This document shows, one piece after another, positions 2,472 through 23,793 of a stretch of DNA of 64,000 nt. The translations under genes were made by a program, and so were the position numbers. Location: NCBI GenBank assembly GCA_022448265.1, contig JAKVCC010000012.1, positions 1 to 64,000 of the forward strand. The letters are read 5' to 3'. Each line of letters begins with the position of its first letter. Within the stretch, counting starts at the first letter, position 1. Below the pieces are notes generated by a model. It was not told the DNA's origin. It ran no database searches and saw nothing but the letters and a program-made list of their open reading frames with translations. The DNA is from Pirellulales bacterium (GTDB lineage Bacteria; Planctomycetota; Planctomycetia; Pirellulales; Lacipirellulaceae).

Positions 2472-2582
2472 CAAGAGTCAGTCACTATCATTGACTTTGT
2501 GTGCAATAGAAAAACGGCAACTTGGGATCAGGGCACTGGAATGCACGTTGCTTATTTTGTCGGCAATGGATTCTAATTCCCT

Positions 2583-5036: not shown

Positions 5037-5107
5037 CGCAACCTATTAGTGCCACCGTATTGAAGCCGACGAATTGGGATTTAGGGTGCTGGACTAAACG
5101 GTTTCGT

Positions 5108-6523
5108 CTAGAACAGGTTAGCTCGGCCTGCAACTCCAACCGAAAAGCGAATGAGTCTCGTGAACACATCGACCACTACGGTTTCAGCTGTTTGTTCAAC
5201 AGTTATCGTGTCGCCGGCAGCGAGGCGTATGTTAGCAAGACCTTTTTTCTTTGCCTTTTTGTAACTTGCTTGGATTGTAATGGGTTCGGGATGATTCTCA
5301 ACGCGGCGAATGATAATCACCTTGTCGGCAACCGGCGATCGAAGTCCTCCTGATAATGCGATTGCATCAAGGAGGTGGATGTCGCGTTCGTATGGAAGTT
5401 CGACTTGTCCAGGTCGGGCTACGAGCCCCGAAACGTAGACCATCTTTTGTTCCCGACGAACCACGCGCACAACGTCTCGGTCGTTGAGTCGATAATCATC
5501 ATTGCCAATGAATTGACCGCGGGAAAGATCGATCCGGATTAAGGGAGGAGCGGGGCGCTGGGGCAGTTGTTGGCTCGGCGGCGCATCAGGCAGCCCCTGA
5601 TAGGCAGCAAGTTGAATCTCGCTTGCCCGCTTGTCTGGCGTGGTCGTCGTGGAGGATTGGTCCTGAGATTGTTGGGCCGATAAGACATCGGATGGCTGGC
5701 GTACGATTTCGATGATAGTGTCAGCATCCTCTGTGAGCCCCCCGGATGCCGCCAGGGCGCTCATTAGGTCGCAGCCACCGCGGGGCAATTTGTGGACACC
5801 GGGCTCTTTCACTGCGCCAAGCACGGTCACGCGGTTAACAGATTTTTCTTTGATTGCGACCGTTACGTGGGGGTTCAGATACATGCCACGCTCAACCCCT
5901 AACTGAGCAATGTTCTTGCTGGCGTCAAATGCTTCTATTCCGGCAACCGGGACAGTACCGATAACGGGAATGTCCACATTGCCTTCGTCAGAAACACGGG
6001 TTATTACGGGTCTAACATTTTCTTCTGCGTAGCCAGTGGCAACCGTGACCTCGATCAGGTCCCTTGGTGAAATCACCGATTCGCTTATGCCAAATTGAGC
6101 GATCTGTGCCAGGTCGATCTGTTTGCCGTGTTTGGAAGCAGCCTTGCGAAACTCTACTGGAAGGCGGTCGGCTCGATAGTGGACCGATTTGCATCCGCTC
6201 ATCATGCTGATCGCGAGAAGAACTGCCAGGGGTAAGCCGGGCAAGTTGGCGATTCGGCCAATCCGATGGGTAAACATCTGGAGCATAGCGCAGCTTGATA
6301 ACATGGGAACGGACACAGCGGCGAGTAGAGACATTTCTACTGCACCGTGTGAATGACGGGCCCTACGTAATATCCCCGAGTTGTATGGGAACGGAATAGG
6401 GGTAAGTACTTGTTTGCTAGTGCCTTCGCAAGGGCATTCTGGCGGGGCTAGCTTGTCCAGAACTGGCATTGTGTCACACCATGATGCTCCATAGATTTCT
6501 GCTCGCTTAATCCCACTTTCCAA
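5108..6523 (-). CDS. Polysaccharide biosynthesis/export protein (Wza-like, SLBB domains), probable lipoprotein; true start probably internal
   Basis: 471 aa; lipobox-like SMMSGCKS followed by ISPRDLIEVTV, VNRVTVLGAVKEPGVHKLPRGG and VYVSGLVARPGQVELPYERDIHLLDAIALSGG (SLBB repeats). Confidence 0.9.
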   Translation of the reverse strand: MESGIKRAEIYGASWCDTMPVLDKLAPPECPCEGTSKQVLTPIPFPYNSGILRRARHSHGAVEMSLLAAVSVPMLSSCAMLQMFTHRIGRIANLPGLPLAVLLAISMMSGCKSVHYRADRLPVEFRKAASKHGKQIDLAQIAQFGISESVISPRDLIEVTVATGYAEENVRPVITRVSDEGNVDIPVIGTVPVAGIEAFDASKNIAQLGVERGMYLNPHVTVAIKEKSVNRVTVLGAVKEPGVHKLPRGGCDLMSALAASGGLTEDADTIIEIVRQPSDVLSAQQSQDQSSTTTTPDKRASEIQLAAYQGLPDAPPSQQLPQRPAPPLIRIDLSRGQFIGNDDYRLNDRDVVRVVRREQKMVYVSGLVARPGQVELPYERDIHLLDAIALSGGLRSPVADKVIIIRRVENHPEPITIQASYKKAKKKGLANIRLAAGDTITVEQTAETVVVDVFTRLIRFSVGVAGRANLF

Positions 6524-7828
6524 ATGTGTTCGTTTGGTGCTGCGCTGATGGATTTTCTGTTAGGATCGGCCTATTGGCTGCTGATAGTCTTGCTGCTAAT
6601 GCTGCTCATTGACCGACAGTGTCGGCGAATTCCAGCTTTCAGACGTTGGCGGCAAGTCATGAGGGTTGCCGCCTTAGTTTGGTGTGGCACCGCCATCCTG
6701 AAGAAGTTCTACTTGGATAGTATCATTCCGCCTGGTGACGCCATTTGGCATGAAGCGATCGCGCGAGAAATCGCTGAGCTTCTCGTCTCCGGAAGTTTTG
6801 CCGAGGCGTTCGATTTGTTCGGCTTTGGCAACCCTGCGTATCGGTTCCTGCTAGGCGTTTTCTATGCCATTTCCGACGCTCCAGAATTGGTGACGTATAC
6901 AGTCAATGGTGCTTTAGCTTACTGGGGAATTTTGGCGGTGCTTGAAGCTGTCTGCCGGCACTCGGGTTGTACCAGACTGCCTGCCAGTGTCGTCGTGCCG
7001 TGCCTTTTTCTACCTTCGGGGTTGCTCTGGACGACAACGAACCTGAAGGAAGGATTGGTCCTGTGGGGAATCTGTATGATGCTCCAGTGGACCTTCCCAC
7101 AGAGGGAGAAACGTTGGGAGGCACCGCGCGGGCTAGCGTTGATAGGAATGATTGCATTGGGTTTAGTAAGACCTCATATTGCCATGATTTGGATTGTCAC
7201 TATCAACCTTTTAGGCACTTGGCGATCTCGAAGATTTGGATTGTTTGTATTGACTAGCGCTGGAGCACTGGCATGCGTGTTTTTCTTGAAGCAAGCCGCT
7301 CCCAGACTGTTCGAAGCGGCCACGGGTCAAGGTGTCACCACAGTTCTAGAGGGACGATACGAGCAGCTCACTACACGTAGTCACCTGGCGAGCAGTCATT
7401 TTTTGGAAAAAAGCCCCACTCCCGTATGGACAGGTGTGACGCTGATTCTATTCAGGCCTTGGCCTTGGGAAGTAAGCCAGCTTACTGAGATGCTTGCCGG
7501 CGTCGAGGTCTGGTGGCTCGCATCAATAGGGATATGGGCTTGGGTCCGCGTGCCCAACAAGCTGGACCATTTGAAACACCCTTGTATCGTTGCTCTATTG
7601 ATTGGACTGGCCCTGTTCGGATTTTTCTTCACGTACATGTACAACATGGGGCTGGTAGTGCGTCAGCGGCTGATGGTATTTCCAGCTGTGTGGCTGCTGT
7701 ATTCGTGGCCACTTGTCTGCAGTTACGCAAAGGTCGTGCGGTCCGTTCCGGCGCGGCGTGGTTCAACCAAAACAACGCGCCCTCAGCCGCAGGGCGTCAT
7801 CCCTGCAGGAAGCTATCAAGGTTCTTGA
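6524..7828 (+). CDS. Polytopic membrane protein of EPS cluster, function unassigned (second polymerase-like candidate)
   Basis: 434 aa with many hydrophobic segments; stop overlaps the start of the flippase gene (TGATG). Confidence 0.65.
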   Translation: MCSFGAALMDFLLGSAYWLLIVLLLMLLIDRQCRRIPAFRRWRQVMRVAALVWCGTAILKKFYLDSIIPPGDAIWHEAIAREIAELLVSGSFAEAFDLFGFGNPAYRFLLGVFYAISDAPELVTYTVNGALAYWGILAVLEAVCRHSGCTRLPASVVVPCLFLPSGLLWTTTNLKEGLVLWGICMMLQWTFPQREKRWEAPRGLALIGMIALGLVRPHIAMIWIVTINLLGTWRSRRFGLFVLTSAGALACVFFLKQAAPRLFEAATGQGVTTVLEGRYEQLTTRSHLASSHFLEKSPTPVWTGVTLILFRPWPWEVSQLTEMLAGVEVWWLASIGIWAWVRVPNKLDHLKHPCIVALLIGLALFGFFFTYMYNMGLVVRQRLMVFPAVWLLYSWPLVCSYAKVVRSVPARRGSTKTTRPQPQGVIPAGSYQGS

Positions 7829-9141
7829 TGTCCGTGCCTGAGCTGCAACAGCGTTTTGCCCACAGTGCGTTATGGTCTATTATTGGCAACGCCTCGCAGC
7901 GTTTTGGCCAATGGGCCATTTTGATTGCATTGGCGAAATTGGGCGGTGTCGAGACGATCGGCGTCTACGCCCTTGCCCTGGCTGCTTGCAATCCGTTGAT
8001 GATGCTCAGTTACCTGCAACTAGGGACGGTGTTAGCGGCCGATTCGTCTGAGCAGTATCCCTTTGCATATTATTGGCAGTTGCGCGTTCTGCTCTGCGTG
8101 GGCGCAGCGGCCGTAATTGTCTGCTTGGCCTTCACATGTGGAGTGAGTAGCTCTGAACTGTCGGTGATCAGTGTCTTAGCGCTGGCCAAGGTGGCTGAGG
8201 GCTTAAGCGATATCCGGCATGGTTTGCTTAAGCGAGCCGATCGCATGGATTTACTTGCGCTGACGCAATGCGTGCGAGCAGTGGTCACATTGGTCTTGTT
8301 TGTGACTACCTTCTCTCTTACCGGTGATTTGTTTAGGAGCGTTCTAGCCCTAGCGTGTGGTTGGGTAGCCTGTCTAGTGCTCATTGATGTGCCATTGTCT
8401 CGTGCGGTCATGTCATCGACAGACTCCGCATCGTTGGCTCATTGCAGGCTTAGGTTCGGAAGAAAGCAGTGGTGGCCTCTGGCGGTATCCGCAATACCGC
8501 TGGGATTGATCTCCTTGGTAGTTTCCCTCTATGCCTATCTGCCTCAATATTTATTAAAAGCAGGTTGGGGCGAGGCGCAGCTGGGAATTTTTGTGGCAGT
8601 TGTGTCTTTGCCTATCGTGCTTGAAACTATCGCGCGCAGCGTGGCTCAAGCAACCATTCCCCGCTTTGCGGCTTTCTGTGCGAACGGTGATGCTACAGGA
8701 TTTAGGCGGTTGTATCGCAAGTCGCTAGCTGTCTTTGTTTCGTTGGGCTCCAGTGGGGTTCTAATTGCGTGGCTCTGGGGCGAACAGTTGCTGAGGTGGC
8801 TATTCAGTCCTGAGCTTGCCCGTCATCAGTCACTTCTTCTGGTGATGACACTAGCAGCTGCGGCCTCGTTTTTGTGTAGCTATGCTTCGATTTTTATCAC
8901 GTTGAAGCAATATGTGGCTTTTCTGAAGCTTTGGAGTCTTAGTTTGTCGGTGCTAGCGGCGTTGGGCTTGCTGCTGATACCTGTTTACGGTGTGCATGGA
9001 GCAGCGTGGGCCGTTGTTGGGAGTAATCTGATTAGGATTGCCTTGATTCACCATTCCATTTACAAGCTGCTCAGAATATCTTTCGTCGCACGACCAGACG
9101 CTCAGCAGCCACCCTCGTCGAGCGTTATGCAAGCGGCCTGA
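7828..9141 (+). CDS. Wzx-like polysaccharide flippase / lipopolysaccharide biosynthesis protein
   Basis: In-frame ATG at 7828 within ORF 7513-9141: MSVPELQQRFAHSALWSIIGNASQRFGQWAILIALAKLGG...; about 12 hydrophobic segments, MATE/Wzx-like pattern. Confidence 0.82.
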   Translation: MSVPELQQRFAHSALWSIIGNASQRFGQWAILIALAKLGGVETIGVYALALAACNPLMMLSYLQLGTVLAADSSEQYPFAYYWQLRVLLCVGAAAVIVCLAFTCGVSSSELSVISVLALAKVAEGLSDIRHGLLKRADRMDLLALTQCVRAVVTLVLFVTTFSLTGDLFRSVLALACGWVACLVLIDVPLSRAVMSSTDSASLAHCRLRFGRKQWWPLAVSAIPLGLISLVVSLYAYLPQYLLKAGWGEAQLGIFVAVVSLPIVLETIARSVAQATIPRFAAFCANGDATGFRRLYRKSLAVFVSLGSSGVLIAWLWGEQLLRWLFSPELARHQSLLLVMTLAAAASFLCSYASIFITLKQYVAFLKLWSLSLSVLAALGLLLIPVYGVHGAAWAVVGSNLIRIALIHHSIYKLLRISFVARPDAQQPPSSSVMQAA

Positions 9142-9215
9142 AGGCGCTTGCCCGTTGCTGGACGGTATACACGCTCTTTTGAGTTTTACTTTTTACCAAC
9201 GAAAACCGAAAAAGT

Positions 9216-10190
9216 ATGACTGCGACCAAAGCAGTTATCCCGAAACCCTCCAGTTTTGGCAGTCTGCCAAATAGCTCAAGGTGCCCCGACTTTTTTATCG
9301 TTGGCGCACCACGTTGCGGTACAACTGCTCTTCACCGCTGGCTGCGTCAGCATCCGCGCGTTTACCTGCCATCGATCAAAGAGTGCCACTACTTTGCCAC
9401 CGATTTAGAGCGTTTCCGTACAATACATACCCAGCAAGAATATCTGCGATTGTTTCGAGATGTAGGCAGTCACCACCAAGCTGTGGGTGAGGCATCGGTG
9501 ATGTATCTCAGTTCGCAATTTGCAATCAAAAACATACACCGGTTCAATCCTGATGCCAGGATTATTGTGACTCTGCGGAATCCATTGACGATGCTCCCCT
9601 CATGGCATGACCAGTTGTTAGTGACCCTGCAAGAAGACGTTACGACTTTTGAAAAGGCTTGGGCAATGCAGGCCGAACGGCGTGGAGGAAGAGCAATACC
9701 ATCTTCTTGTACCGTGCCGCAATCGTTACAGTATTCAGCTATTGGACAACTCGGCGCCCAAGTTTCTCGTCTGTTGCAGCAGTTTGACAAGCAGCAAATT
9801 CACTTCGTGGTGTATGACGATTTAAGCCAACATCCTGATGCGACTTACAAGATTTTACTGCAAAGGCTTGGAGTGGACTTTGACGGCCGCAGCGACTTTT
9901 CTAAAGTCAATCGGAATCGTGAAATTTCTTCGGCCTGGCTGCGACGATTTTGGCAGCGGAATCGTCTGGCTAGGCAACGGCTGCAGGTAATCCGTAAGGT
10001 GTTGGGCGATTCACTTTATGATCGCGCACGCGACTTTGTCATGCCGCGTTTGTCACGGCCCAAGCATCGCGGACAGCTGTCTGCGAGCATGCGGGAGATG
10101 CTGCGTGCTGAATTTTGCGAGGATGTAGCCTTGCTGTCTGATTTGGTCGGGCGAGATTTCAGCCACTGGCTTCATTGCGAATCCGCGTAG
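9216..10190 (+). CDS. Sulfotransferase family protein
   Basis: PAPS 5'-phosphosulfate loop-like FFIVGAPRCGTTALHRWLRQHPRVYLPSIKECHYFATD and downstream ARIIVTLRNPLTMLPSWHDQ. Confidence 0.9.
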   Translation: MTATKAVIPKPSSFGSLPNSSRCPDFFIVGAPRCGTTALHRWLRQHPRVYLPSIKECHYFATDLERFRTIHTQQEYLRLFRDVGSHHQAVGEASVMYLSSQFAIKNIHRFNPDARIIVTLRNPLTMLPSWHDQLLVTLQEDVTTFEKAWAMQAERRGGRAIPSSCTVPQSLQYSAIGQLGAQVSRLLQQFDKQQIHFVVYDDLSQHPDATYKILLQRLGVDFDGRSDFSKVNRNREISSAWLRRFWQRNRLARQRLQVIRKVLGDSLYDRARDFVMPRLSRPKHRGQLSASMREMLRAEFCEDVALLSDLVGRDFSHWLHCESA

Positions 10191-10256
10191 TTGACTGCAA
10201 ATTGCTGTGGTGTAAATCCCTCTGGAATAAAATAACCGGATAACGATCGGAATAAC

Positions 10257-10898
10257 ATGTACCGAGAAGACGTTATTTTGCCGCTAGTGAAGGAAAAGTG
10301 CGTGCTAGATTGTGGCGGCGTCGACCATTGCTTTGTCGAGCACAAACGTGACGAAGGATCATGGCTACACGATCAAATTCGTAGCCGAGCCAAAGAGTGC
10401 GTGGGAGTTGATATTCTCGAAGATCGAGTGGATCAGCTGAACTCGATCGATGGCTACAAGTTTCTTGTGGCAAACGTAGAAGAGCTTGATTTTCACGAAC
10501 AATTTGACGTAGTCGTTGCCGGTGAACTGATCGAACACATCTACAACGCCGGCCTTTTCCTTGACGGGGCCTGGCGCGCCCTTAAAGACAACGGAACGCT
10601 TGTCGTCACAACACCGAATTTCCAAGCTTTTTCAAGAATGGTTTATATGGTGGTCCGTGGGAAGGAAGTATGTCATGAGGAGCATACGTGCTACTACAGC
10701 CGGCAGACACTTTCCTATCTTGTAGAGCGTCATGGATTTGAAATCAAAGAGTTTCATGTTCTCGGTAGGCCGGCGCAGACTCGTCTTAGGACTTGGATAC
10801 GCTCTGCCGTACATGCCGTCCGGCCTCAGCTAGGAGAACAACTTGTTATGGTAGCCGAAAAGAAAAGTAAGCAAAGCAAATACAGCGACAAATGGTAG
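10257..10898 (+). CDS. Class I SAM-dependent methyltransferase
   Basis: VLDCGGVDH, CVGVDILEDRVDQLN, FDVVVAGELIEHIYNAGLFLDGAWRALKDNGTLVVTTPN. Confidence 0.88.
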   Translation: MYREDVILPLVKEKCVLDCGGVDHCFVEHKRDEGSWLHDQIRSRAKECVGVDILEDRVDQLNSIDGYKFLVANVEELDFHEQFDVVVAGELIEHIYNAGLFLDGAWRALKDNGTLVVTTPNFQAFSRMVYMVVRGKEVCHEEHTCYYSRQTLSYLVERHGFEIKEFHVLGRPAQTRLRTWIRSAVHAVRPQLGEQLVMVAEKKSKQSKYSDKW

Positions 10899-10987
10899 TG
10901 ATCCTGTTTTTCCAATGCAGGGTGACCCAGCCGTCTCGACATTTAAAGCTTCTATCACATCCAAACGATGGAAATTCAGAAATCAAC

Positions 10988-12214
10988 ATGAACGAACAAT
11001 CTGCAAATCCTGCAGCCCAACGTGTTTTACATCTTGTGCATGGGCTCAACCGTGGCGGGATTGAAATATGGTTGCTGGAGATGATGCAATATATTTCACG
11101 ACAGAAACTGGAGATGGATGTTTGCTGCAAAGGTCCAGAGTTGGGTGTGTTGGCAGAGGACTTTCGCCAAGCAGGGGCAAATGTCATCCACCTGCCCCAG
11201 AAGCGGAACCCCCTGGTTTTTGTGCGAGCACTTCGTGATCTACTGATTCGAATGCGTTATGACGCGATTCACGTCCACACTGGGGCCCATAGCAGCTGGT
11301 CTGTGCGAGCTGCCCAATCGGCGGGTGTTCCGGTGATTACGACTTTTCATAACACGCGGTTTCCGCGCGAGTCGAAATGGACCTCGTCTCCTTTGCTTGG
11401 GCAGGCAGTGAAGCAATATACCAGTTGGAGCATTCGGTACGCCGTTAAAAAATCGCAACTCGTGACGGGCGTTTCACAGGGATCTGCTGACGTTGTGCAG
11501 AAAATAAGCCGCGTTCAGAAACCGAAATGCGAAGTTGTTTACTTGGGAGTTGAAGACCCTTTGGTGATTTCGCAGGGTGAAATCGAGCAAAAACGTAAAG
11601 CATTGCAACTGACCTCTGCGGACAAGGTGTTCATTCATGTTGGAAGCTTAACTGAGCAGAAAAACCACCTTGGCTTACTTGAAGTCTTTCGGCTTATTCA
11701 CAAGAAGATACCCCAAGCAAGACTCCTCATCGTCGGTACGGGTCCTTGTCGAGAAGTTATCGAGCAGCGTACTGGTGAACTTGGCTTGCAGGACTCGGCT
11801 CAATTGCTTGGTTTGAGGACAGATGTCTCAGAACTTATGCAGGCGAGTGACCTACTGCTCTTTCCGTCAATTCGTGAGGGGCTGAGCCTTGCGCTGATGG
11901 AGGCGAGTGCCGCTCGACTGCCTATCGTAGCCTCCAACATCCCAGGTAATTTCGAAGCAACAGCAGGAGGAAAAACTGGCCGGCTTCACGAAGTCGAAGA
12001 CTATGCGGCTATGGCTAATTCGGCGTGTGAGTTGGTCCAACAGCCGGCCTTGGCTGCAGAGATCACCCATAGCGCTCGCCGGGTTTATGAACAGAACTTT
12101 TCACTGGAGACGTCTGCTACGCGTTGGCAAGACCTCTATAGACGCGTAATTGCTGATTTCACTGGAGAACGATTGTTACAAAGTTCTTCCAGTCTGCCAG
12201 AAAAAGCTGCCTGA
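10988..12214 (+). CDS. Glycosyltransferase family 4 (GT-B)
   Basis: In-frame ATG at 10988: VLHLVHGLNRGGIEIWLLEMMQYI... FIHVGSLTEQKNHLGLLEVF... LLLFPSIREGLSLALMEASAARLPIVASNIPGN. Confidence 0.92.
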   Translation: MNEQSANPAAQRVLHLVHGLNRGGIEIWLLEMMQYISRQKLEMDVCCKGPELGVLAEDFRQAGANVIHLPQKRNPLVFVRALRDLLIRMRYDAIHVHTGAHSSWSVRAAQSAGVPVITTFHNTRFPRESKWTSSPLLGQAVKQYTSWSIRYAVKKSQLVTGVSQGSADVVQKISRVQKPKCEVVYLGVEDPLVISQGEIEQKRKALQLTSADKVFIHVGSLTEQKNHLGLLEVFRLIHKKIPQARLLIVGTGPCREVIEQRTGELGLQDSAQLLGLRTDVSELMQASDLLLFPSIREGLSLALMEASAARLPIVASNIPGNFEATAGGKTGRLHEVEDYAAMANSACELVQQPALAAEITHSARRVYEQNFSLETSATRWQDLYRRVIADFTGERLLQSSSSLPEKAA

Positions 12215-12690
12215 TGCTCCCGTTCATCTTCAGGGAAGCAACCGTGCGCGATTCTATTTAACACGGCAGGCATGCATCGAGATGTTTTTTACAGGCGGTC
12301 AACATTGCTACAGCCAACATGCAGGGCAAACTGCATCCGCGGCCAAATAGCTTTTTAGAGATTGCAAAGCTATCGCTGAAAAGTTTTTGTTACAGATTGA
12401 TAGGCCTCAGTTTTTGTCACAAAAGTGAATATAGTTTCTAGGAGGTATAGCAGGAGTTTTTGCGGCGTTGGTAGTCACTTCTTTGTAGGCGCGTAACGAA
12501 TTAGCGTTCTTGAAAAGCTACGCAAATAGATCTAACGACTGTGTCTAAATCCTGCTGCCCACCGATAATAACGTGCATTTCTGGCTGGTCCACAAAACGA
12601 CATGCACGCGCGATGGCACATGTCATTGCAAATGCACGACCTGCGGAAAAAAGAGTGCCAAAGTGGCGCCGTCTAGTAGTTGCTCAATAA

Positions 12691-13377
12691 CTACAAAAAA
12701 AACTCACTATAACGTTCAAGGGCGCGGAAGTCATTTTCATACAGTTTGCGGATTCTTCGCAAATCATCGTCCGTTTTTGGAATCGAATGAGGATCGGACG
12801 CGTTACGTTTTGCGGAAAAATCCAAGTTGCGAAACCACTTTAGACTTTGCAGCTTTGGCAATTCGGAAACCCGGCACAGAGTCAGATTTGTCGCATGAAG
12901 GTCGTTCGCCAGTACATCAAGGTACCAGGACTGAGTCCGAAAAACCGGATCGCGCTCTGAATCGGGAAGCTTTTCAAGGTGGTCTAAAAACTCGGATACG
13001 CTCCTTATTTTCTGATAGGACTCTGCGTTGGCAATTATGCCGTCTGTCCCACCTCCACCCGATGCATATTTGCACGATGACAAGAACCGTGCTACCGGAT
13101 CTCGCCAGATTGCCAGGATCGGCAGCCCCTCTTTGTTTTCACTAATCAACTGGCTCAGTCGCATATGGCCCAGTCGGCGCCTGTACAAACTGAATGCAAT
13201 ACTCGATCCGGCGTTTTTTGGAATGTGGCAAAAAATCAATCCAGCGCTACTATAGTGCGAATGTCGGTACGTACGATAAGCCCGATCCCAAATGTTAGGT
13301 AGCAGCGGTCTGACGACTCGCAAAATGGCTGATTTTGCTTTGGCCGACGTTTTTGCGTTCAGCACAGGAAAATTCAT
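12691..13377 (-). CDS. Sulfotransferase family 2-like protein
   Basis: GLIFCHIPKNAGSSIAFSLYRRRLGHMRLSQL... LPILAIWRDPVARFLSSCKYA (PSB and PB-like motifs). Confidence 0.82.
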   Translation of the reverse strand: MNFPVLNAKTSAKAKSAILRVVRPLLPNIWDRAYRTYRHSHYSSAGLIFCHIPKNAGSSIAFSLYRRRLGHMRLSQLISENKEGLPILAIWRDPVARFLSSCKYASGGGGTDGIIANAESYQKIRSVSEFLDHLEKLPDSERDPVFRTQSWYLDVLANDLHATNLTLCRVSELPKLQSLKWFRNLDFSAKRNASDPHSIPKTDDDLRRIRKLYENDFRALERYSEFFL

Positions 13378-13927
13378 GGGTTTTGAGGAGGGAAGAGGTG
13401 TTAGGGCCGATTGGCACTTAGGTTGTTGTCGCGCGGCAGTTAACGGACGTAAATACGAGGGGGCCCCTCCTGCGTATTCTTTAAGAAAATCGAACCTTCC
13501 AAAAGACTAGAAGGCCTCTTCGATGCTCGATTCATTTTGTTCACGGTTTGCAGCGACACGACGTGATAACCAGCTGTTTTTCGCCTCTGCTCAATGAGCA
13601 GGCTATCCGATTCCTCTTTGGCGGAACAAGTGTAATACAAGTATCGCCAAAATCTAACAGTACAATCCCCGCTAGCAAACATCCGGTTGATTAGCGTTCC
13701 TGTAGTCGGATTATGGCATTGTCGTAAACGCCTGGTCTCGTATTGCTGATATAGTCTTCATTTTCTACAACTCCATGCCGTCCGGTTGCAGGTAATTGGG
13801 GGCATAAGGCCAGAACGCCACCGGCAGAGCGCTGGAGGGACTCCTTGCGCTATATTCGGACGCAGAAGCAAAGGTGGGTGCCACCTGCTACCATTTGCCT
13901 CTGACGCTCTCACCTAACGGATTATTC

Positions 13928-15139
13928 ATGCTTAACCTTATTCACATTACTACCATCCCCCAGACTTTCGGATTTCTAAAAGGTCAGATGCGTACCATGC
14001 AACGATGGGGATTGACCGTCGGGGCGATTACGTCACCAGCCTCAGAAGACTTGGAGAAACTTGACGCAGAGGATTTTCCCACAACACGCGTCCCGATGAG
14101 GCGAGCTATCAGCCCGATCGCGGACCTCATTGCGATTTTTTATTTGGTTGGGCACTTGCGCCGCATTCGACCTGCAATCGTTCATGCCCATACTCCCAAA
14201 GCGGGACTTCTTGGAATGCTGGCGGCAACAATAGCAAGAGTGCCAGTACGCATCTATCATCTTCATGGGATGCGTTTTCAAACATTAAGTGGCTGGCGTC
14301 GCTGGTTGACGGTTGCTGGTGATCGGCTTGCTTGCTCGCTGGCAACGCAGGTTTTATCTGTCGGAAATTCAGTAAGACAAGCGGCGATAGAGGAAGGAAT
14401 CGTCAATTCCGAAAACGTAAAAGTTCTTGGGTATGGCAGTATTGATGGCGTCGATGCTACCGAGCGTTTTAATCCTGCTCGTCAAACTGCGGCCATGCAG
14501 CGTAGCACTAGAGAAGAGTTGGGATTTACAGAGGACTCACCTATTCTAGGTTTCGTTGGCCGTCTGGTTGTCGATAAGGGAGTTGTCGAATTAGCCGATG
14601 CTTGGTCGACACTGCGAGCTCAGTTTCCAAGCCTGCATCTCATTATTGTCGGGATGTACGACAACAATGAACGATTGCCATCTGAGGTGCAAAAATTACT
14701 GGACGATGACCCCCGAATAACTATGGTTGGTCATGTAACTGACATAGAACGCTATTACGCCATCATGGATGTGCTGTGCCTGCCAACATACCGCGAAGGT
14801 TTACCTTACGCTCTGATCGAAGCAGCCGCCATGGAGGTGCCTGTTGTTGCCACGCATGTGTGTGGCTGTGTAGACGCGGTTGTCGACGGCGTTACCGGAA
14901 AATTAGTGGCCCCGAGAGATAGCTCGGGCATGGCTAGAGCACTTGCTAGCTATCTGACGGATACAGCGATTCGTCGCCAACATGGCATGGCGGCTCGCAA
15001 ACGAGTTCTAGACTACTTTCATCCGTCGTTAGTGAGAGAACAAGTTTACCGAGAGTACAAACGACTGGCGGATTGTCAGGGAATTTCTGACTTGTTAGAC
15101 AGAAAGACAGATGCGATGTCGGATCGCTGTGCAGCATAG
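13928..15139 (+). CDS. Glycosyltransferase family 4 (GT-B)
   Basis: ORF 13874-15139, likely start MLNLIHITTIPQTFGFLKGQM; ILGFVGRLVVDKGVVELADAW... DVLCLPTYREGLPYALIEAAAMEVPVVATHVCGC. Confidence 0.92.
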   Translation: MLNLIHITTIPQTFGFLKGQMRTMQRWGLTVGAITSPASEDLEKLDAEDFPTTRVPMRRAISPIADLIAIFYLVGHLRRIRPAIVHAHTPKAGLLGMLAATIARVPVRIYHLHGMRFQTLSGWRRWLTVAGDRLACSLATQVLSVGNSVRQAAIEEGIVNSENVKVLGYGSIDGVDATERFNPARQTAAMQRSTREELGFTEDSPILGFVGRLVVDKGVVELADAWSTLRAQFPSLHLIIVGMYDNNERLPSEVQKLLDDDPRITMVGHVTDIERYYAIMDVLCLPTYREGLPYALIEAAAMEVPVVATHVCGCVDAVVDGVTGKLVAPRDSSGMARALASYLTDTAIRRQHGMAARKRVLDYFHPSLVREQVYREYKRLADCQGISDLLDRKTDAMSDRCAA

Positions 15140-15245
15140 CATTGCATTCATGCGTTGATTAGGCGCAGAATGAATGTCATCAATTAAGACTTACAAACAA
15201 AGGCATGCCAGTTTGTATGCAGAGATTCGCCTGGACTGATTCACC

Positions 15246-15890
15246 ATGAATAGTAGTTTGTACGGTCGTTATTTCAAACGCATCCTTGATGTTGCAGTCG
15301 CATTTGCATTGTTCGTTTTGTTGGCTCCGCTTCTTCTGGTAATTGCATTTTTAGTGCGCATACGACTCGGCCCGTCAGTTCTCTACACTCAAACGCGGAC
15401 AGGACGGCACAATCGGCCGTTTAAGCTGATTAAGTTTCGTACGATGACAACAGAGTGTAACAGTACAGGGGAATTGCTGCCCGACGAGTTCCGTATGACA
15501 AAGTTAGGCCGTTTGCTTCGTGCTAGTAGCTTGGACGAGCTGCCGGGGATTTGGAACGTGCTGCGAGGCGAGATGAGTCTTGTGGGGCCGCGGCCGCTGC
15601 TGGTCGCGTATTTGCCACGTTACTCGTCCGTGCAGGCACGGCGCCACGAGGTTCGACCTGGAATTACCGGTTTGGCGCAGGTGCGAGGGCGCAATGCGAT
15701 TTCTTGGGAGGAAAAGTTTGCCCACGATGTCCAGTACGTTGATAATCATTCGCTTGCACTTGACCTGTGGATCTTTTCCCAAACAGTTTTTGCAGTATTC
15801 CGGCGGCGGGGCATCTCAGCTGATGGACATGCAACGATGCCTGAATTCATGGGCAGCGCCGAGGTAGGTCTTAGTCGGCGCGCAGCATAA
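15246..15890 (+). CDS. Undecaprenyl-phosphate sugar transferase (bacterial sugar transferase; initiating enzyme)
   Basis: YFKRILDVAVAFALFVLLAPLLLVIAFLVR, FKLIKFRTMT, SLDELPGIWNVLRGEMSLVGPRPLL, RHEVRPGITGLAQVRGRNAISWEEKFAHDVQYVDNHSLALDLWI. Confidence 0.96.
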   Translation: MNSSLYGRYFKRILDVAVAFALFVLLAPLLLVIAFLVRIRLGPSVLYTQTRTGRHNRPFKLIKFRTMTTECNSTGELLPDEFRMTKLGRLLRASSLDELPGIWNVLRGEMSLVGPRPLLVAYLPRYSSVQARRHEVRPGITGLAQVRGRNAISWEEKFAHDVQYVDNHSLALDLWIFSQTVFAVFRRRGISADGHATMPEFMGSAEVGLSRRAA

Positions 15891-16210
15891 GCGTTTGTCG
15901 TAGCTAAGCAGAAGTGCGATGAGCGATTGCTTCAAAGCTGCCTGGGTGAAATCCCATGAGCTGCCGCAATTCTTTCGATCGATCATTGCCTGAAAGTGTG
16001 GCACTGCAGATCTGCCCAGGTATGACTGCTGCCGTTTGGTCCAGATATAGGCCGTCCACCGATCCGGCGTGAGCACCCGGTTGTCGTTATAGGCGAGTAT
16101 CTCCCAGATGATCTGATGGCAGAGGTCCAAGTCGTTGGGGAGTGGGACGGCGTCTATGCACATGCCGCCAAACCAGTGATCAAGGCAATAGCATTTTCAG
16201 ACGTGGAAAC
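15846..16210 (-). pseudogene. Possible remnant of a protein-coding gene (unidentified family)
   Basis: Protein-like minus-strand segment KCYCLDHWFGGMCIDAVPLPNDLDLCHQIIWEILAYNDNRVLTPDRWTAYIWTKRQQSYLGRSAVPHFQAMIDRKNCGSSWDFTQ, truncated upstream by a TGA and running into the 3' end of the sugar transferase gene. Confidence 0.25.
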
Positions 16211-16843
16211 CCTGAAAAGAGCAAAAATCCGCCACTTGGAGCGTCCCCGAGTTTTCGCTTGCAGGGGGCGTGAACGGTTGCCGTTTTCACGTGCGTTGCA
16301 GTTGATTTTCTCAGTTACCAATTGAATTGCTGGAAGGAGATCACTACTGGTTCATCACACTGTGCCAATTCAGTGGGCCCGTTCCTTGGTATAGTTTGGC
16401 GCCGAAAATTTGAACTGCTGGCAAACATGGCAAAGTAGCACAGTTGCTTACAGCCGTTTGTCACCCGCTACCCTGATAGCAACGATAGCTGGCTTAATGA
16501 TTGCTCTAGTCGCTTTACTTAAGAACTAGGTATACACCCTGCAGAAAACAAGTAGGAAACGAGCATCTGAGCCTAGCTTCGTAGTGGTTCGCACATGTTA
16601 GGTCTTTTGCGCAGCTTGCATGCCAATTCGCTTGTGAGTCGCCTTTTTCAGCCCTTTACTAAAACGTTTTAACCAGGGTGACGTTCGCGCTTGCCACACT
16701 ATACCAGTATCCTGCGCCTTCGCGCCCGCTGATTATCAGCGCTGCGATGTAACTATGATTCACTTGGATACTTTCCTGGAAGGCGTGTCAGGCGGCGTGA
16801 GAGTGCGCGCGGTTTATTTCCACCTATTGCGGAGCCCCAACTC

Positions 16844-17815
16844 GTGCCTCAGCACCTTTTGATTGTCTCGGCAGGACGACGTTGTTTGCTCGTGCGCTAT
16901 TTTCAGCAAGCTTTCTCTCACGCGGACTGTGGGGTACAGGTCCTCGCTGCTGACATGGCGCCCGATTTGTCTTCGGCTTGTCAGGCCGCTGATGGATACC
17001 TGGCAACCCCTGCGATTCAAGATCCTGACTACATCGATCGACTTCTCGAGCTTTGCCAAGCAAATGATATTCGGGTTGCTATCCCCACGATCGACACAGA
17101 CTTGCTGATGCTGGCAGAAAACCGAGACCGGTTTGCAATGCATGGAATCGAGTTGCTCGTGTCCGACCAGGATCTGGTGAGACAATGCCGCGACAAACGG
17201 CTCACTGTCGAACTTTTTGCCCGGCACGGCGTTTGCTCGCCAGCTCAGGTAGACCCGCGCCAGGAAAGCGCTTTTCCGCTGATTGCAAAGCCTTACGATG
17301 GCAGTTCGAGCAACAACTTGCACGTTGTGCGCAGTGTTGCCGATCTGCATCCGAGACTGCTCGAAGACACGAAACTTGTATTCTTCGAATATCTTTCGCG
17401 TGAAGAGCACGACGAGTACACCGTCGATATGTACTTCGATCGCGACAGTGTTCTCAAGTGTTTTGTTCCTCGCTTGCGGATAGAAACGCGCGCTGGCGAA
17501 GTTAGCAAAGGCCGAACTGTTAAGCTCCCGGCGTTAGACTCGTTACGAGAGAAATTCCAGCACTTGCCCGGAGCACGCGGTTGTTTGACGATGCAATTAT
17601 TTGTGCGGACGATAGATGGAAAGCTCTCCGGCATTGAGATCAACCCCCGCTTTGGTGGTGGCTATCCGTTGAGTTATGAAGCTGGCGCAAACTTTCCAGC
17701 CTGGATTGTCTCGGAGTACTTTCACCATGAAAACATTCGATACTTCGACGCATGGCAGGACCGGCTCACCATGCTCCGCTACGATGCTCACGTCCTTGTC
17801 TCAAGTGCCGCTTAG
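16844..17815 (+). CDS. ATP-grasp domain protein (CarB/PylC-like ligase)
   Basis: HLLIVSAGRRCLLVRYFQQAF, FPLIAKPYDGSSSNNLHVV, KLSGIEINPRFGGGYPLSYEAGANFPAWIVSEYF. Confidence 0.88.
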   Translation: MPQHLLIVSAGRRCLLVRYFQQAFSHADCGVQVLAADMAPDLSSACQAADGYLATPAIQDPDYIDRLLELCQANDIRVAIPTIDTDLLMLAENRDRFAMHGIELLVSDQDLVRQCRDKRLTVELFARHGVCSPAQVDPRQESAFPLIAKPYDGSSSNNLHVVRSVADLHPRLLEDTKLVFFEYLSREEHDEYTVDMYFDRDSVLKCFVPRLRIETRAGEVSKGRTVKLPALDSLREKFQHLPGARGCLTMQLFVRTIDGKLSGIEINPRFGGGYPLSYEAGANFPAWIVSEYFHHENIRYFDAWQDRLTMLRYDAHVLVSSAA

Positions 17816-18449
17816 CGACGATTGTGCACTCGTGTTTGATTTGGACGACACGCTTTATCTCGAGCGAGATTTTCTCGAATCCGGGTTCCGTGAGGTAGCA
17901 CGCAATATTGATCCGGTGCGCAGCGTAGAAATAAGCCGACGGCTAGAGCATCTGTACGACGATGGAGATCATGACCCCATTGGCGCATTGCTTGCCGAAA
18001 TAGGCAGGGTCGCGGAGAAGTCGGCACTGTTACGGATCTACCGGGAGCATTTGCCATCACTCCAACTGACGCGGTCAATTGCCAGGTTGCTACAGCGTCA
18101 AATGGGTGGGCAGCGCCCGATTGGACTACTATCCGACGGACGCTCAGTGACGCAGCGCAATAAAATTTGTGCGCTGGGACTCGACCAGCTGGTTAGCGAA
18201 ATTGTGATTTCCGAGGAATTTGGGTCGGCCAAACCGAACGAGAAAAATTTTCTTCATTTCCAGTCAGTATTCCCACATCGTCGATATGCCTACGTTGGTG
18301 ACAACCTGGCTAAAGACTTTGTTGCACCCAATCGATTAGGTTGGACAACGATCGGGCTCTTAGATCAGGGAGAAAATATTCACCCTCAACGTTTTGAATC
18401 GGTGCCCAGAAGCTATCATCCGCAATATTGGATCGAGAAAATTGCTTAG
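17784..18449 (+). CDS. HAD-superfamily hydrolase
   Basis: ATG at 17784 in ORF 17676-18449: CALVFDLDDTLYLERDFLESGF... IGLLSDGRSVTQRNKICALGL... FGSAKPNEKNFLHF... YAYVGDNLAKDFVAPNRLGW. Overlaps the ATP-grasp gene by 32 bp. Confidence 0.88.
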   Translation: MLTSLSQVPLSDDCALVFDLDDTLYLERDFLESGFREVARNIDPVRSVEISRRLEHLYDDGDHDPIGALLAEIGRVAEKSALLRIYREHLPSLQLTRSIARLLQRQMGGQRPIGLLSDGRSVTQRNKICALGLDQLVSEIVISEEFGSAKPNEKNFLHFQSVFPHRRYAYVGDNLAKDFVAPNRLGWTTIGLLDQGENIHPQRFESVPRSYHPQYWIEKIA

Positions 18450-18611
18450 CTTCGCATAATCTCGCGTAGTGATTCAGCGAGATGTTTTTTGGGCAGAGGT
18501 GGGGTCACCACGGGTATTTTGTTATTGTCGCTATCAGCCTAGTTTACTACCTTGTACCGACCCGCTCATGTCCCTCGCATCTGCTGGCCCCTCAGACGCT
18601 GGTGCGTACGT

Positions 18612-19805
18612 ATGGCAAACGAAAGTTCCAAGTTGTCTCAGCGACCGGCTTCGCAATCTAATCGCGTATTCCTTTCAGCACCGCACATGTCGGGCGACGA
18701 ATTGGCATTGATTGAGGAGGCGTTCCTGTCGAATTGGATCGCCCCGCTCGGACCCCACGTCGATGCATTTGAAGAAGAGTTTGCCGCCAAGCTTGGGGTG
18801 GATCATGCAGTAGTGCTTTCGAGCGGCACCGCGGCGTTGCATTTGGCCTTGTTGATAGCGGGCGTTGAGCCAGGTGACAAAGTAGTCACTTCAACACTTA
18901 CCTTCGTCGCAACTGCCAATGCAATTGGTTACACCGGGGCAGAGCCAACCTTCATTGATAGCGAGCGGTCAAGTTGGAACATGGATCCGCAGCTGTTGGC
19001 GGAGGAGCTTGCCGACGCCGCCCAAAAAGGTCAATTGCCCCGCGCCGTAGTAGTGGTCGACATATGTGGCCAAAGCGCTGATTGGAAACCAATTCGCGAA
19101 CTTACCGACGAATACGAAATCCCGCTTATTGCTGACAGTGCCGAATCGCTTGGTGCAACCTACGGTGATAGAGCCGCCGGAACTCTGGGTGATATCGGTT
19201 GTTTCTCGTTCAACGGAAACAAGATTATCACAACCGGCGGCGGCGGAATGCTGGTGACAGACAACGGGGACTGGGCTAGGCAGGTACGCCATTTGGCAAC
19301 GCAAGCGCGCGATCCTGCTCCCCATTATGAGCATTCGCAGCAGGGGTACAACTATCGGCTCAGCAATCTCCTGGCAGCAGTAGGGCGTGGTCAGCTGCGC
19401 GTGCTCGAACAGCGCGTCGACGAGAGGCGCGCAGTTTTTGAGTACTACCAAGATGCCATTGGGAACCTGCCCGGCATCGAGTTTATGCCCGAGGCCAAAT
19501 TCGGACGATCGACCCGTTGGCTCACTTGCCTGCTTGTGGACGCGTCTCTTTCGGGCGTATCTCCTGAACGTCTTCTGCAAGAGTTTGCTGCTGAGAATAT
19601 CGAAGCGCGTCCGATGTGGAAACCGATGCACCTGCAACCGTTATTTCGTGACGCGCAGTACCGTGGTGGGAAGGTGGCCGAGGATATTTTTGCGCGCGGT
19701 TTATGTTTGCCCAGTGGATCGAGTCTTACCGAACAGGACTTGCAGCGGATTGCGTCAGTTTTCCGATCTGTTTTTCCCGATTTGAAAAAACCCCTGGTGG
19801 CTTGA
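18612..19805 (+). CDS. DegT/DnrJ/EryC1/StrS family aminotransferase (sugar aminotransferase)
   Basis: VFLSAPHMSGDELALIEEAFLSNWIAPLGPHVDAFEEEFA..., VVLSSGTAALHLAL, LIADSAESLGATY, GCFSFNGNKIITTGGGGMLVT. Confidence 0.95.
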   Translation: MANESSKLSQRPASQSNRVFLSAPHMSGDELALIEEAFLSNWIAPLGPHVDAFEEEFAAKLGVDHAVVLSSGTAALHLALLIAGVEPGDKVVTSTLTFVATANAIGYTGAEPTFIDSERSSWNMDPQLLAEELADAAQKGQLPRAVVVVDICGQSADWKPIRELTDEYEIPLIADSAESLGATYGDRAAGTLGDIGCFSFNGNKIITTGGGGMLVTDNGDWARQVRHLATQARDPAPHYEHSQQGYNYRLSNLLAAVGRGQLRVLEQRVDERRAVFEYYQDAIGNLPGIEFMPEAKFGRSTRWLTCLLVDASLSGVSPERLLQEFAAENIEARPMWKPMHLQPLFRDAQYRGGKVAEDIFARGLCLPSGSSLTEQDLQRIASVFRSVFPDLKKPLVA

Positions 19806-20106: not shown

Positions 20107-23100
20107 CTAGATCCAATCACCAATCTTTTGGAATACCAAGTCCGTTGCCTGGACGTGCGCGTTATTGTTGCCACCGTTAATCGCAAAAGCTTGTACGTTG
20201 GCGAAGTCATTGACGCGGTTATTGAAGTTGGTTCCGGACAAAGTGACATCGCTACCGGTAGCCTGCAAGCTGTCGTCTCCGGTGGAATCGAAAAGCTTTG
20301 CAACGTCATTGCCCTGGGACGAGGTCGTATGGGTTTGGTCGAATAGCCTAGCGTAGTTCAAAAATCCCACGCCCGACATAATTGCTCTGTTATGGAAAGC
20401 TCGATACGTATCGTCTCCAGAAGAATCATGAAAAGTAGCTGTGTCATATCCTGTCGATGCGTAGGCATACGTAGCACAAAACCCGGATGCGTAGTTGTGG
20501 AACCCGGTGCCGCTTAAAGTAACGTAGTTGAAATAGGATTCATAAACATCGTTGCCTGGTGAGTCGTAGAACCTTGCTTCGTCGTTACCCTGAGAAGAGT
20601 ATCCATAGTTGGCGGAGAAATTATTGGCCCGATTATAAAACCCAGTACCCTGTAGTATGGCGCGATTGTGGTAGGCACGAAAATCATCGTCGCCAACCGA
20701 ATCATAAAATTTTGCAATGTCATAGCCTTGGGTCGAATAGGCATAGGTACTACTGAACTGGCTGGCGGCGTGAGAAAAGCCTATGCCCGAGAAGGTGGCG
20801 TGGTCGTAATAGCCTTCGTACAGATCATCACCTGCGGAGTCATAGAAAGCAGCAGTGTCATCGCCCGCTGTCGAATAGGCGTAGGTCTGAGCAAAGTATT
20901 TTGCGGTGTTATTGAAGCCAGTGCCAACCATCAACGCATAACGGCTGTACCCTTTGAATGTGTCACTGCCGATGGAATCATAGAAACGGGCAATGTCCTG
21001 ACCGCCAAAGGAGTGTGCTTGAGTTCTTGCAAAGCCATCAGCGGAGTTGAAATAGCCGCTTCCGGTCATCGTTGCTCGGTCGTGGTGTGCCAGAAATTCA
21101 TCATTGCCAACTGAGTCGTAGAAGTTGGCAAAATCATTGCCCCCGGTCGAGTAGGCGTAATTCTCATCAAACATGCGAACATAGTTGAAATACCCGCTTC
21201 CGGAGAGCATCATCTTGTTGTGGTATGCCCTGAGTAGATCGTACTCAGCTGTGTCGTAGAAAGTCGCCACATCATGGCCGGAAGTAGCATAGGTGTAGGT
21301 CAACGCGAAATCGTTGGCGCGATTTGAGAACCCGCTACCCGCCAGTGTCACATGATCCGAATAGCCGGTGTAGGTGTCGTCCCCTGACGAATCGTAGAGG
21401 CGCGCCGCGTCGGTGCCTTGTGTCGAATAGGCATGAGTCGAAGCAAAGTCCCGGGCGTAGTTGTAGAAGCCAGTCCCCTTCATGATCGCGCGGTTGTAAT
21501 AGGCGCGGTAGTCGTCGTTTCCGGCGGAGTCATGTAGTTCGGCGTGGTCGGTGCCACCGGTCGAGTAGGCATAGGTTTCAGAAAAATCGTACGCGGTGTG
21601 CGTAAAACCTGTGCCGGAAAAGGCGACATCTGACATGCGAGCAACCAAGATATCGTCCCCGGCGCTGTCGTAGAGTGTGGCAGTGTCGTTGCCGCCATTG
21701 CCATAGACATCGACGGTTTCCATGTCGTGCGCTAATACTGCGAAACCATTGCCGTTCAATGTGGCCTGTCCGACGCTCAGGACGGCGGTCTCATTTCCAC
21801 TAGTGCCCGTTAGCGTGATCGAGTCGTTGCCCGTACTGCCGGCAAAGTTTACGTTGGTGACGGAAATTGCTGCAAAGCTGTAGGAGACACCGTTGACGAC
21901 GACCTGGTATGTGTTGCCGGCGGCAAAGCTAAAGACGTCGTCACCTGCGGTGCCCGCGACTTGCACGGTGGTGCCGCTCAGTGATACGAGATTGGTCAAG
22001 CGGAAGTCAACGTCGTTATTGGTTCCCGATACCTTGAGGAAGACCTCATCACCGGCACTGGCATAAACATCAACGCGTGAGGCGCTTCCTACGGAGTTGC
22101 CCGTATCGATGAGCTGTAGGCTGTAATCGTAGAGTTCCAAGCTCACTTGGCCGCTGGTGTTATCAAACATGGCCTCGGCAGTTAGGTAGCCAGCGCTGGC
22201 GGCTTCGAAACGGTACCAGGTTTCTCCCGCGATCGAAACATCATCGAGTTCGTTGAAGGCGACGGACCCCCAGTCTGTGAATGAAAACGTTGACTCCGAG
22301 GTGATGTCCAGATCGTAGTAGCCCAATCCGTCGGCGGACGACAAGCCTACTGTATAGTTCTGTCCTGCCGTGACATTGACAGTGAAGATTTCGTTGTCAT
22401 CGCCGCTCCAGGTGCCGGTTCCACCAGACACCTGCCAGGAGGTATCTATCGCGTGCGTCATGTTCGACGCAGTAAACGTGACGGTGCCCGAATTTTCAGC
22501 GGTGAAGGCGAAATAGTCGATATCGCCCAGCGTGGTGATCGCTCCGCTCATCGATATGGGGTCATTGACCATGCCGAGGCTATAAGCGGAGTCGAGGCTC
22601 GAGCCGTAATCGTCTATGGGCATCAGCGCGTAGATGGCGGCTTCCAAATTGAGGCGGTCGTACCAGGTATTGGTGGCGGTATCGTAAAATGAGTCCGCCG
22701 TGGCGGCCATCTGATCATAGATTGTGTCTTGGGTAATATTCGTGTGGCCGGCAAACTCCATCGCTTCACGGATGAGCACGCTCGATCCGGCCACGTAGGG
22801 GGCCGCCATGCTCGTGCCCGAGAAGCGGGCAAAGTCGTCGTCGGTGCCATTGTTGTTGCCAGCGTAATCGGGCACCGTGCTAGTGATCCAGCGCCCAGGG
22901 GCGGCGATGGCGCGTGAATGGCGCTGGCTGAAGTAGCTTAGCAGCCCGCTGTCGTCGGTCGACATTACCGGTATGACGTGCGAGCTTGCTGCCGGATAAC
23001 TTAGGCCCGCCTCGGTATGGCTGGTGTAGCTATTGCCGGCCGCGACCGAAATAAAGATACCGTCGGCTTCCAACTGGGCGAATTCGTCTTCAAGATTTGC

Positions 23101-23793
23101 CCAGTTTGGAATCGTGTCCGAGTTCCAATTTGCCACACCGAGCGACAGGTTTACCGCAGTGATTGGATTTTCAAAACTATTGCGATTCGTATGCACCCAG
23201 TCTAGGGCATTCTCGACCCAGGAGAAGTAACCAGCACCGACATCATCGAACACCCGTAGCCCAACCAGGTCCACTCCCGGGGCAACTCCCGTATGGGTGC
23301 TGTCGTTGCTGCCGATGATTCCCGAGACGTGCGTGCCATGCGAACCCTCGGGGCCGTCGTCGTAGGGATTAGCGTCGTTTTCACCAGTGAAATCCCAGCC
23401 GCCGACAACGCGATAGTTTTTTCCAAATCCACCGCCTAGCGCTGCGTGGTCGTAGGCGATTCCGCTGTCGATGACGGCGACCGTTTGACCAATACCCGAA
23501 AATCCGTAGTCGCTGCGGACCTGAGTCAGCCCGGTTTGGTCGTGGGCGCTGGCCAGGGATTGATCGATTTGACGCAAGTGCTCTTCGAGCGAATTTTGAT
23601 AGGATGTGTCGATCCAAAAATCGGGAGTCGACTCCTGATGATGATCCAAGGCGAGGGGAGCATCGGCCAGCGCATGGTGCTGCACGCTACACCCTAGTAG
23701 TCCACCCAGTGGATCGGCTGACATCACGAGCCGATCTTCCAGCGTTTCCATCTTGCCAGACCAGCGAAATTGCGGGTGGTGTTCTTTGGGCAT
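20107..23793 (-). CDS. Giant S8 (subtilisin) family serine protease with LEPR-XLL-like N-terminus, PPC-like region and C-terminal 46-aa repeats
   Basis: 1228 aa; METLEDRLVMSAD N-terminus; catalytic triad motifs VAVIDSGIAYDH, GSHGTHVSGII, FSGTSMAAPYVAG; about 11 tandem repeats of the type [DG]DxYxAYxxxAxLSGTGFxNxAxxFxxTYAYSTxGxDxAxFYDSxG. Confidence 0.93.
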   Translation of the reverse strand: MPKEHHPQFRWSGKMETLEDRLVMSADPLGGLLGCSVQHHALADAPLALDHHQESTPDFWIDTSYQNSLEEHLRQIDQSLASAHDQTGLTQVRSDYGFSGIGQTVAVIDSGIAYDHAALGGGFGKNYRVVGGWDFTGENDANPYDDGPEGSHGTHVSGIIGSNDSTHTGVAPGVDLVGLRVFDDVGAGYFSWVENALDWVHTNRNSFENPITAVNLSLGVANWNSDTIPNWANLEDEFAQLEADGIFISVAAGNSYTSHTEAGLSYPAASSHVIPVMSTDDSGLLSYFSQRHSRAIAAPGRWITSTVPDYAGNNNGTDDDFARFSGTSMAAPYVAGSSVLIREAMEFAGHTNITQDTIYDQMAATADSFYDTATNTWYDRLNLEAAIYALMPIDDYGSSLDSAYSLGMVNDPISMSGAITTLGDIDYFAFTAENSGTVTFTASNMTHAIDTSWQVSGGTGTWSGDDNEIFTVNVTAGQNYTVGLSSADGLGYYDLDITSESTFSFTDWGSVAFNELDDVSIAGETWYRFEAASAGYLTAEAMFDNTSGQVSLELYDYSLQLIDTGNSVGSASRVDVYASAGDEVFLKVSGTNNDVDFRLTNLVSLSGTTVQVAGTAGDDVFSFAAGNTYQVVVNGVSYSFAAISVTNVNFAGSTGNDSITLTGTSGNETAVLSVGQATLNGNGFAVLAHDMETVDVYGNGGNDTATLYDSAGDDILVARMSDVAFSGTGFTHTAYDFSETYAYSTGGTDHAELHDSAGNDDYRAYYNRAIMKGTGFYNYARDFASTHAYSTQGTDAARLYDSSGDDTYTGYSDHVTLAGSGFSNRANDFALTYTYATSGHDVATFYDTAEYDLLRAYHNKMMLSGSGYFNYVRMFDENYAYSTGGNDFANFYDSVGNDEFLAHHDRATMTGSGYFNSADGFARTQAHSFGGQDIARFYDSIGSDTFKGYSRYALMVGTGFNNTAKYFAQTYAYSTAGDDTAAFYDSAGDDLYEGYYDHATFSGIGFSHAASQFSSTYAYSTQGYDIAKFYDSVGDDDFRAYHNRAILQGTGFYNRANNFSANYGYSSQGNDEARFYDSPGNDVYESYFNYVTLSGTGFHNYASGFCATYAYASTGYDTATFHDSSGDDTYRAFHNRAIMSGVGFLNYARLFDQTHTTSSQGNDVAKLFDSTGDDSLQATGSDVTLSGTNFNNRVNDFANVQAFAINGGNNNAHVQATDLVFQKIGDWI
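20110..21654 (-). repeat. Protein-level tandem repeat, about 11 x 138 bp (46 aa) inside the S8 protease CDS
   Basis: Manual alignment of the translated C-terminus: consecutive 46-residue units such as DTYTGYSDHVTLAGSGFSNRANDFALTYTYATSGHDVATFYDTAEY / DLLRAYHNKMMLSGSGYFNYVRMFDENYAYSTGGNDFANFYDSVGN / DEFLAHHDRATMTGSGYFNSADGFARTQAHSFGGQDIARFYDSIGS. Confidence 0.93.

Follow-up and report, generated by a model that had tools for sequence, protein, structure and literature searches.

The window, by which we mean the whole 64,000-nt stretch of DNA that was analysed, carries a gene for a subtilase, which is a known enzyme type, joined to an uncatalogued repeat that is predicted to form a solenoid; it is a real conserved feature rather than a new system. 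In its Bythopirellula-like planctomycete host the gene is read on the minus strand, from an ATG at 23793 to 20107, and the plus-strand frame over the same positions contains many stops (Table 1). The S8 triad motifs noticed in the original prediction were confirmed by a match to Pfam PF00082 (E = 1.3e-36), with the catalytic residues D109, H152 and S328 and the oxyanion residue N254 all in place, and the S8 part of the structural model matched solved subtilisins in Foldseek with a target-normalised TM of ~0.8. The intact triad suggests that the domain is catalytically competent and proteolytic. The identity of the protein as a T7SS mycosin (TIGR03921) was rejected, since its score of 108.8 bits compares with an equivalog score of at least 278.75. 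The middle region probably consists of two PPC/collagen-binding-like beta-sandwiches, as judged from the model, and gave a weak profile match to the ColH collagen-binding domain 3jqw (E = 0.006). Matches of this region to AlphaRep were treated as spurious, with no matching stretch.

Table 1. Features of the protease gene and of the neighbouring polysaccharide locus (window positions; res, residues of the protein)
Feature	Position	Strand	Details or basis
Wzx/Wzy-type polysaccharide locus	1..19805		Pfam
CDS, S8 protease / solenoid protein	20107..23793	-	1228 aa, ~132 kDa, pI 4.2, 2 Cys
LEPR-XLL / planctomycete extracellular N-terminal signal-like motif, res 15-32 (METLEDRLVMSAD)	23698..23751	-	NF012209, PF07595
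Peptidase S8 (subtilase) domain, res 101-366	22696..23493	-	PF00082, Foldseek subtilisin fold
All-beta middle region, res 388-606	21976..22632	-	AF2 secondary structure and weak 3jqw profile match
Two degenerate solenoid units, res 608-653 and 654-699	21697..21972	-	46-aa register and strand pattern
Eleven 46-aa repeat units, res 700-1205	20179..21696	-	self-identity offsets, unit alignment, AF2
C-terminal tail, res 1206-1228 (NGGNNNAHVQATDLVFQKIGDWI)	20110..20178	-	conserved in orthologues

The LEPR-XLL-like N-terminus, also pointed out at the start, scored 20.3 bits against NCBIfam NF012209 (LEPR-8K), above the curated cut-off of 17, and the related PF07595 matched weakly, at 16.6 bits, below its own cut-off. 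LEPR-XLL has been reported as a planctomycete cell-surface signal, and its bearers were detected in a planctomycete proteome (PMC8567305). Hence, we infer from the motif that the protease is exported by the LEPR-XLL route. At the other end of the protein, the short tail is conserved in orthologues as xxAxDYxFxxxGxW, and it is kept even in members with a linker between it and the repeats. Many LEPR-XLL/Planc_extracel proteins of the Lacipirellulaceae, whatever their domains, carry a C-terminal motif Phi-[DE]-x-Phi-[FYW] (L199-L251, L257-L276), with endings such as LEQVFG, LDEVFSEMGS and FDAVFSGLG, which may be compared with positions 20110-20178 of the window. This motif was defined post hoc, and in the genomes used to define it, it was present in 30 of 53 LEPR proteins versus 30 of 585 control ORFs, or 10/24 versus 19/399 after clustering of the tails. 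One possibility is that it acts as a sorting signal at the C-terminus, in combination with the N-terminal LEPR motif; this stays a lead, because the enrichment is weaker after de-redundancy and only 5 of 19 proteins from three other genera have the ending (p = 0.003). None of 53 other LEPR proteins, which came from three genomes of the family, had the 46-aa repeat. On contig C6 of the same genome, a second LEPR-XLL protein of 1696 aa (L192:8174-13264) has a subtilase GTSMAxP-type motif and no repeat array, and near it, on the opposite strand, lies a gene for a 1767-aa PF07595 protein.

The neighbourhood of the gene was described with Pfam, which assigned to the adjoining polysaccharide (EPS) locus an O-antigen ligase/polymerase (Wzy_C), a Wzz/BY-kinase, export proteins (Poly_export/SLBB), a flippase, a sulfotransferase, GT1s, a sugar transferase (15246-15890) and a DegT aminotransferase (18552-19805). 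The DegT gene is the last of the EPS genes and converges on the protease gene, in agreement with the convergent arrangement that had been noted before. The other flank is occupied by a catabolic-looking cluster (creatininase by Pfam, the rest from translations). A homologue of the sugar transferase and/or of DegT was located within ~7 kb of the protease in 17 of 24 other loci of the family, always 3′ of the protease gene, usually in convergent orientation and separated from it by varying genes. Such a homologue was absent from all 18 control loci (p = 1.4e-6), the controls being a convenience sample of other repeat proteins, other parts of the own genome and remote subtilases, not random positions. 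Only two sugar transferases of the PF02397 family are encoded in the 3.6 Mb of the own genome. The presence of the same protein beside the same kind of polysaccharide cluster across the family suggests that the protease probably works in or on the polysaccharide coat of the cell. Outside the family, the link was seen in only 1 of 15 other Pirellulales loci, and it may therefore reflect positional history. This bears on the explanation that the protein is an ordinary scavenging subtilase for extracellular protein, and that its adjacency to EPS genes is shared ancestral gene order without functional meaning. The catabolic-looking cluster, the variability of the EPS neighbours themselves and the confinement of the link mostly to one family are consistent with such a role. 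However, the link outlasts strong divergence of the EPS genes and varied intervening genes in many genera, which makes neutral gene order unlikely, and we consider the scavenging explanation a less probable one.

The C-terminal half of the protein is dominated by the repeat. The self-identity of residues 601-1228 peaked at offsets of 46 (0.39) and 92 (0.38), did not exceed 0.145 at any offset other than a multiple of 46, and the offset-46 peak was absent from the first 400 residues. The original prediction of about eleven 46-aa repeats was right for the array itself, which has exactly 11 units and zero indels, but it missed the C-terminal tail and two degenerate units, which lie directly upstream in the 46-aa register, show the same strand pattern with pLDDT >90, and bring the predicted solenoid to ~13 units. 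The repeat consensus proposed there was essentially right when compared with the alignment of units; over 363 units from many proteins it reads GxDxAx[LF]YDSAG[DN]Dx[FYL]xAxxxRAx[ML]xGxG[FY]xNxAxGF[DE]x[VT]xAYAT. The regularly spaced Asp-Ser-x-Gly-Asp-Asp was likewise recovered as ladders of aspartate at column 3 (99% of the units), column 14 (95%) and column 9 (88%). The mean pairwise identity of the units is 45% at the amino acid and 53% at the nucleotide level and does not fall with distance along the array, and the units of the window protein have no positional correspondence with those of close relatives. The saturated DNA divergence, together with the missing distance decay and the missing positional orthology of units between species, indicates that the array is old, as had been supposed, and the latter observation also suggests that arrays turn over while the unit length and register are kept.

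The repeat was placed outside described families by the original prediction, and no Pfam, NCBIfam or PHROGs family matched it, nor did any PDB sequence; phages and plasmids gave no match either. In its own genome the repeat occurs in the S8 protease only. A profile built from the eleven units detected it in 81 of 197 genomes of the host's order, 28 of them among the 37 genomes listed for its family, and a broader profile run across the phylum detected it in 8 of 392 genomes, seven of the same order and one of the same class. Thus, by these profiles, the repeat seems almost confined to the host's order among the genomes searched within the phylum. The only carrier outside the order in the phylum draw (G152) has the repeat in three proteins (L087, L088), and horizontal transfer or deep ancestry is possible there.

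Orthologues of the protease were found in relatives that include Bythopirellula polymerisocia, Lacipirellula limnantheis, Botrimarina and Aeoliella, at ~46-75% identity over the protease and middle region, except for one fragment at 84%. Their uninterrupted arrays comprise 2-15 units, each 45-51 aa long, which suggests constraint on the length and register of the units but not on their number, as would fit an arm or spacer. A long arm is not required in all cases, since the array is as short as 2-3 units in some relatives. While the contig scan used full-length alignment, it was the genome profile search alone that yielded the carriers lacking an S8 domain. In these, the same array follows other heads, namely a C25 peptidase (L081), a cyclophilin/Ig protein (L075), an FG-GAP protein (L094) and a beta-helix protein (L085), and the repeat appears to be a portable C-terminal module with a distribution wider than the S8 protease alone. 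Matches of the FG-GAP protein to AtzE/GatA were far below the cut-off and were treated as noise. The C25 protein, from a single-contig genome of the same order (G167; L081:3251-7876), combines a gingipain-family peptidase with a P-domain, SdrD_B and a 46-47 aa array. Giant open frames of 3300-7600 aa carry repeat stretches in the same genome (L083, L084) and in three others (G334, G408, G416), and these giant repeat proteins are probably surface proteins.

The AlphaFold2 (AF2) model of five units with the tail was a beta-solenoid with five strands per unit (pLDDT 96.4, pTM 0.91). A regular strand pattern of the same kind began near residue 609 in the full-length model and ran to its end, with a break at residues 1028-1071, where the low pLDDT was read as an alignment gap, because the same units scored >90 in the five-unit model. 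Since AF2 can invent confident beta-solenoids for perfect repeats (PMC11795689), the inward/outward pattern was tested independently. At the predicted strand positions of 363 units, 0.5% of residues were charged in the inward columns and 24% in the outward ones, a contrast that is partly by construction, as the choice of inward columns was made by eye, following the alternation. Column entropy alternated along the strands in a permutation test that is independent of this choice (p = 5e-5). Stacked coils and in/out alternation, which define the beta-solenoid class, are thus present by prediction, and the C-terminal half is predicted to be a regular beta-solenoid of ~13 units, in line with the solenoid first proposed for it. 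The repeat model had no match at E ≤ 0.001 in the PDB and BFVD, its nearest Foldseek matches being RTX beta-rolls (TM 0.26-0.33, E ≥ 0.012).

The surface of this predicted solenoid is relevant to the possibility that it is mainly ligand-binding, as an adhesin or polysaccharide-binding structure that docks the protease onto its own EPS or algal polysaccharide, and not a spacer. Tyrosines are exposed on the strands in column 8 (70% of the units) and column 43 (52%), and such aromatic columns, the conserved EPS neighbourhood, and the occurrence of the array on further putative surface proteins, FG-GAP among them, could be explained in this way. On the other hand, the repeat is acidic (pI 4.45), unlike typical polyanion binders, and, apart from these columns, the outward positions vary widely (mean entropy 3.26 bits), without a conserved cleft; a mainly ligand-binding function is, in our judgement, rather unlikely. 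A second possibility is that the repeats behave like an RTX beta-roll, staying disordered in the cell until extracellular Ca2+ makes them fold, which would drive export, with the tail serving as the secretion signal. The two G-x-D turns per unit, the RTX beta-rolls as best Foldseek matches and the conserved tail, even where separated by a linker, would fit this mechanism. However, HemolysinCabind (PF00353) gave no hit on the protease at E < 1, the hhalign score of 11.2 was inside the range of column-permuted controls, which reached 14.0, and the best structural match to an RTX parallel beta-roll had E = 0.012, TMq 0.26 and rmsd 11.6. Membership in the RTX family by sequence was rejected on the first two of these results, as in the original prediction, and RTX-like export is improbable. 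Finally, that the solenoid is an AF2 artefact, with repeats that form another beta structure such as beads or stay disordered, would suit the known AF2 repeat bias (PMC11795689) and the lack of known structural relatives, but we give it very little credence, as the units are natural and divergent, the model is supported by an alignment, and the strict alternation of uncharged and charged positions argues against artefactual solenoids, of which buried stacked charges are the reported mark (PMC11795689).

The protein shares parts with several known systems. Of the secreted S8 subtilases with C-terminal beta-domains, Tk-SP (PDB 3afg/9ues), which has an extra C-terminal beta domain, is among the best sequence and fold matches and has the same S8 fold and triad, but it lacks both the 46-aa repeat solenoid and the LEPR-XLL N-terminus. 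Serralysins (P. aeruginosa alkaline protease 1kap, PrtC) likewise join a protease head to a C-terminal solenoid with G-x-D turns, while their head is a metalloprotease and their 9-residue repeat has no profile similarity to the 46-aa repeat (TM ~0.3). The LEPR-XLL/Planc_extracel proteins (NF012209, PF07595) have the N-terminal motif and large size in common with the protease, but that class is defined by the N-terminus alone. The C25 (gingipain-type) protein of G167 has the same array and a similar tail behind a different, cysteine protease with its P-domain and SdrD_B. It is conceivable, and we propose it tentatively, that the repeat is a beta-solenoid type without a solved counterpart, with which Pirellulales display enzymes at the surface (subtilase, gingipain-like C25 peptidase, cyclophilin) as a portable module at the C-terminus, and which in Lacipirellulaceae is genetically tied to EPS.

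For the protein itself, we find it somewhat likely that it is a subtilase which is exported, is associated with the matrix or the surface, and sits on a rigid solenoid that Ca2+ probably stabilises. The LEPR-XLL N-terminus would direct export by an uncharacterised route, and the S8 domain would cleave extracellular proteins. The predicted solenoid, with its stacked Gly-x-Asp turns probably filled by Ca2+, could act as a rigid arm or platform, by which the catalytic head would be kept within the secreted polysaccharide matrix or at the surface of the cell. The conserved position of the gene at the 3′ edge of the EPS cluster suggests that the protease may remodel or protect the EPS coat, or process proteins embedded there. 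A profile of the repeat would annotate many currently unnamed giant surface proteins of Pirellulales. The surface biology of planctomycetes, including the export and retention of LEPR-XLL proteins and their function in the coat, is poorly understood, and a family-wide, EPS-linked protease with an uncatalogued, well-defined repeat module is a concrete target for questions about both the coat and the solenoid.
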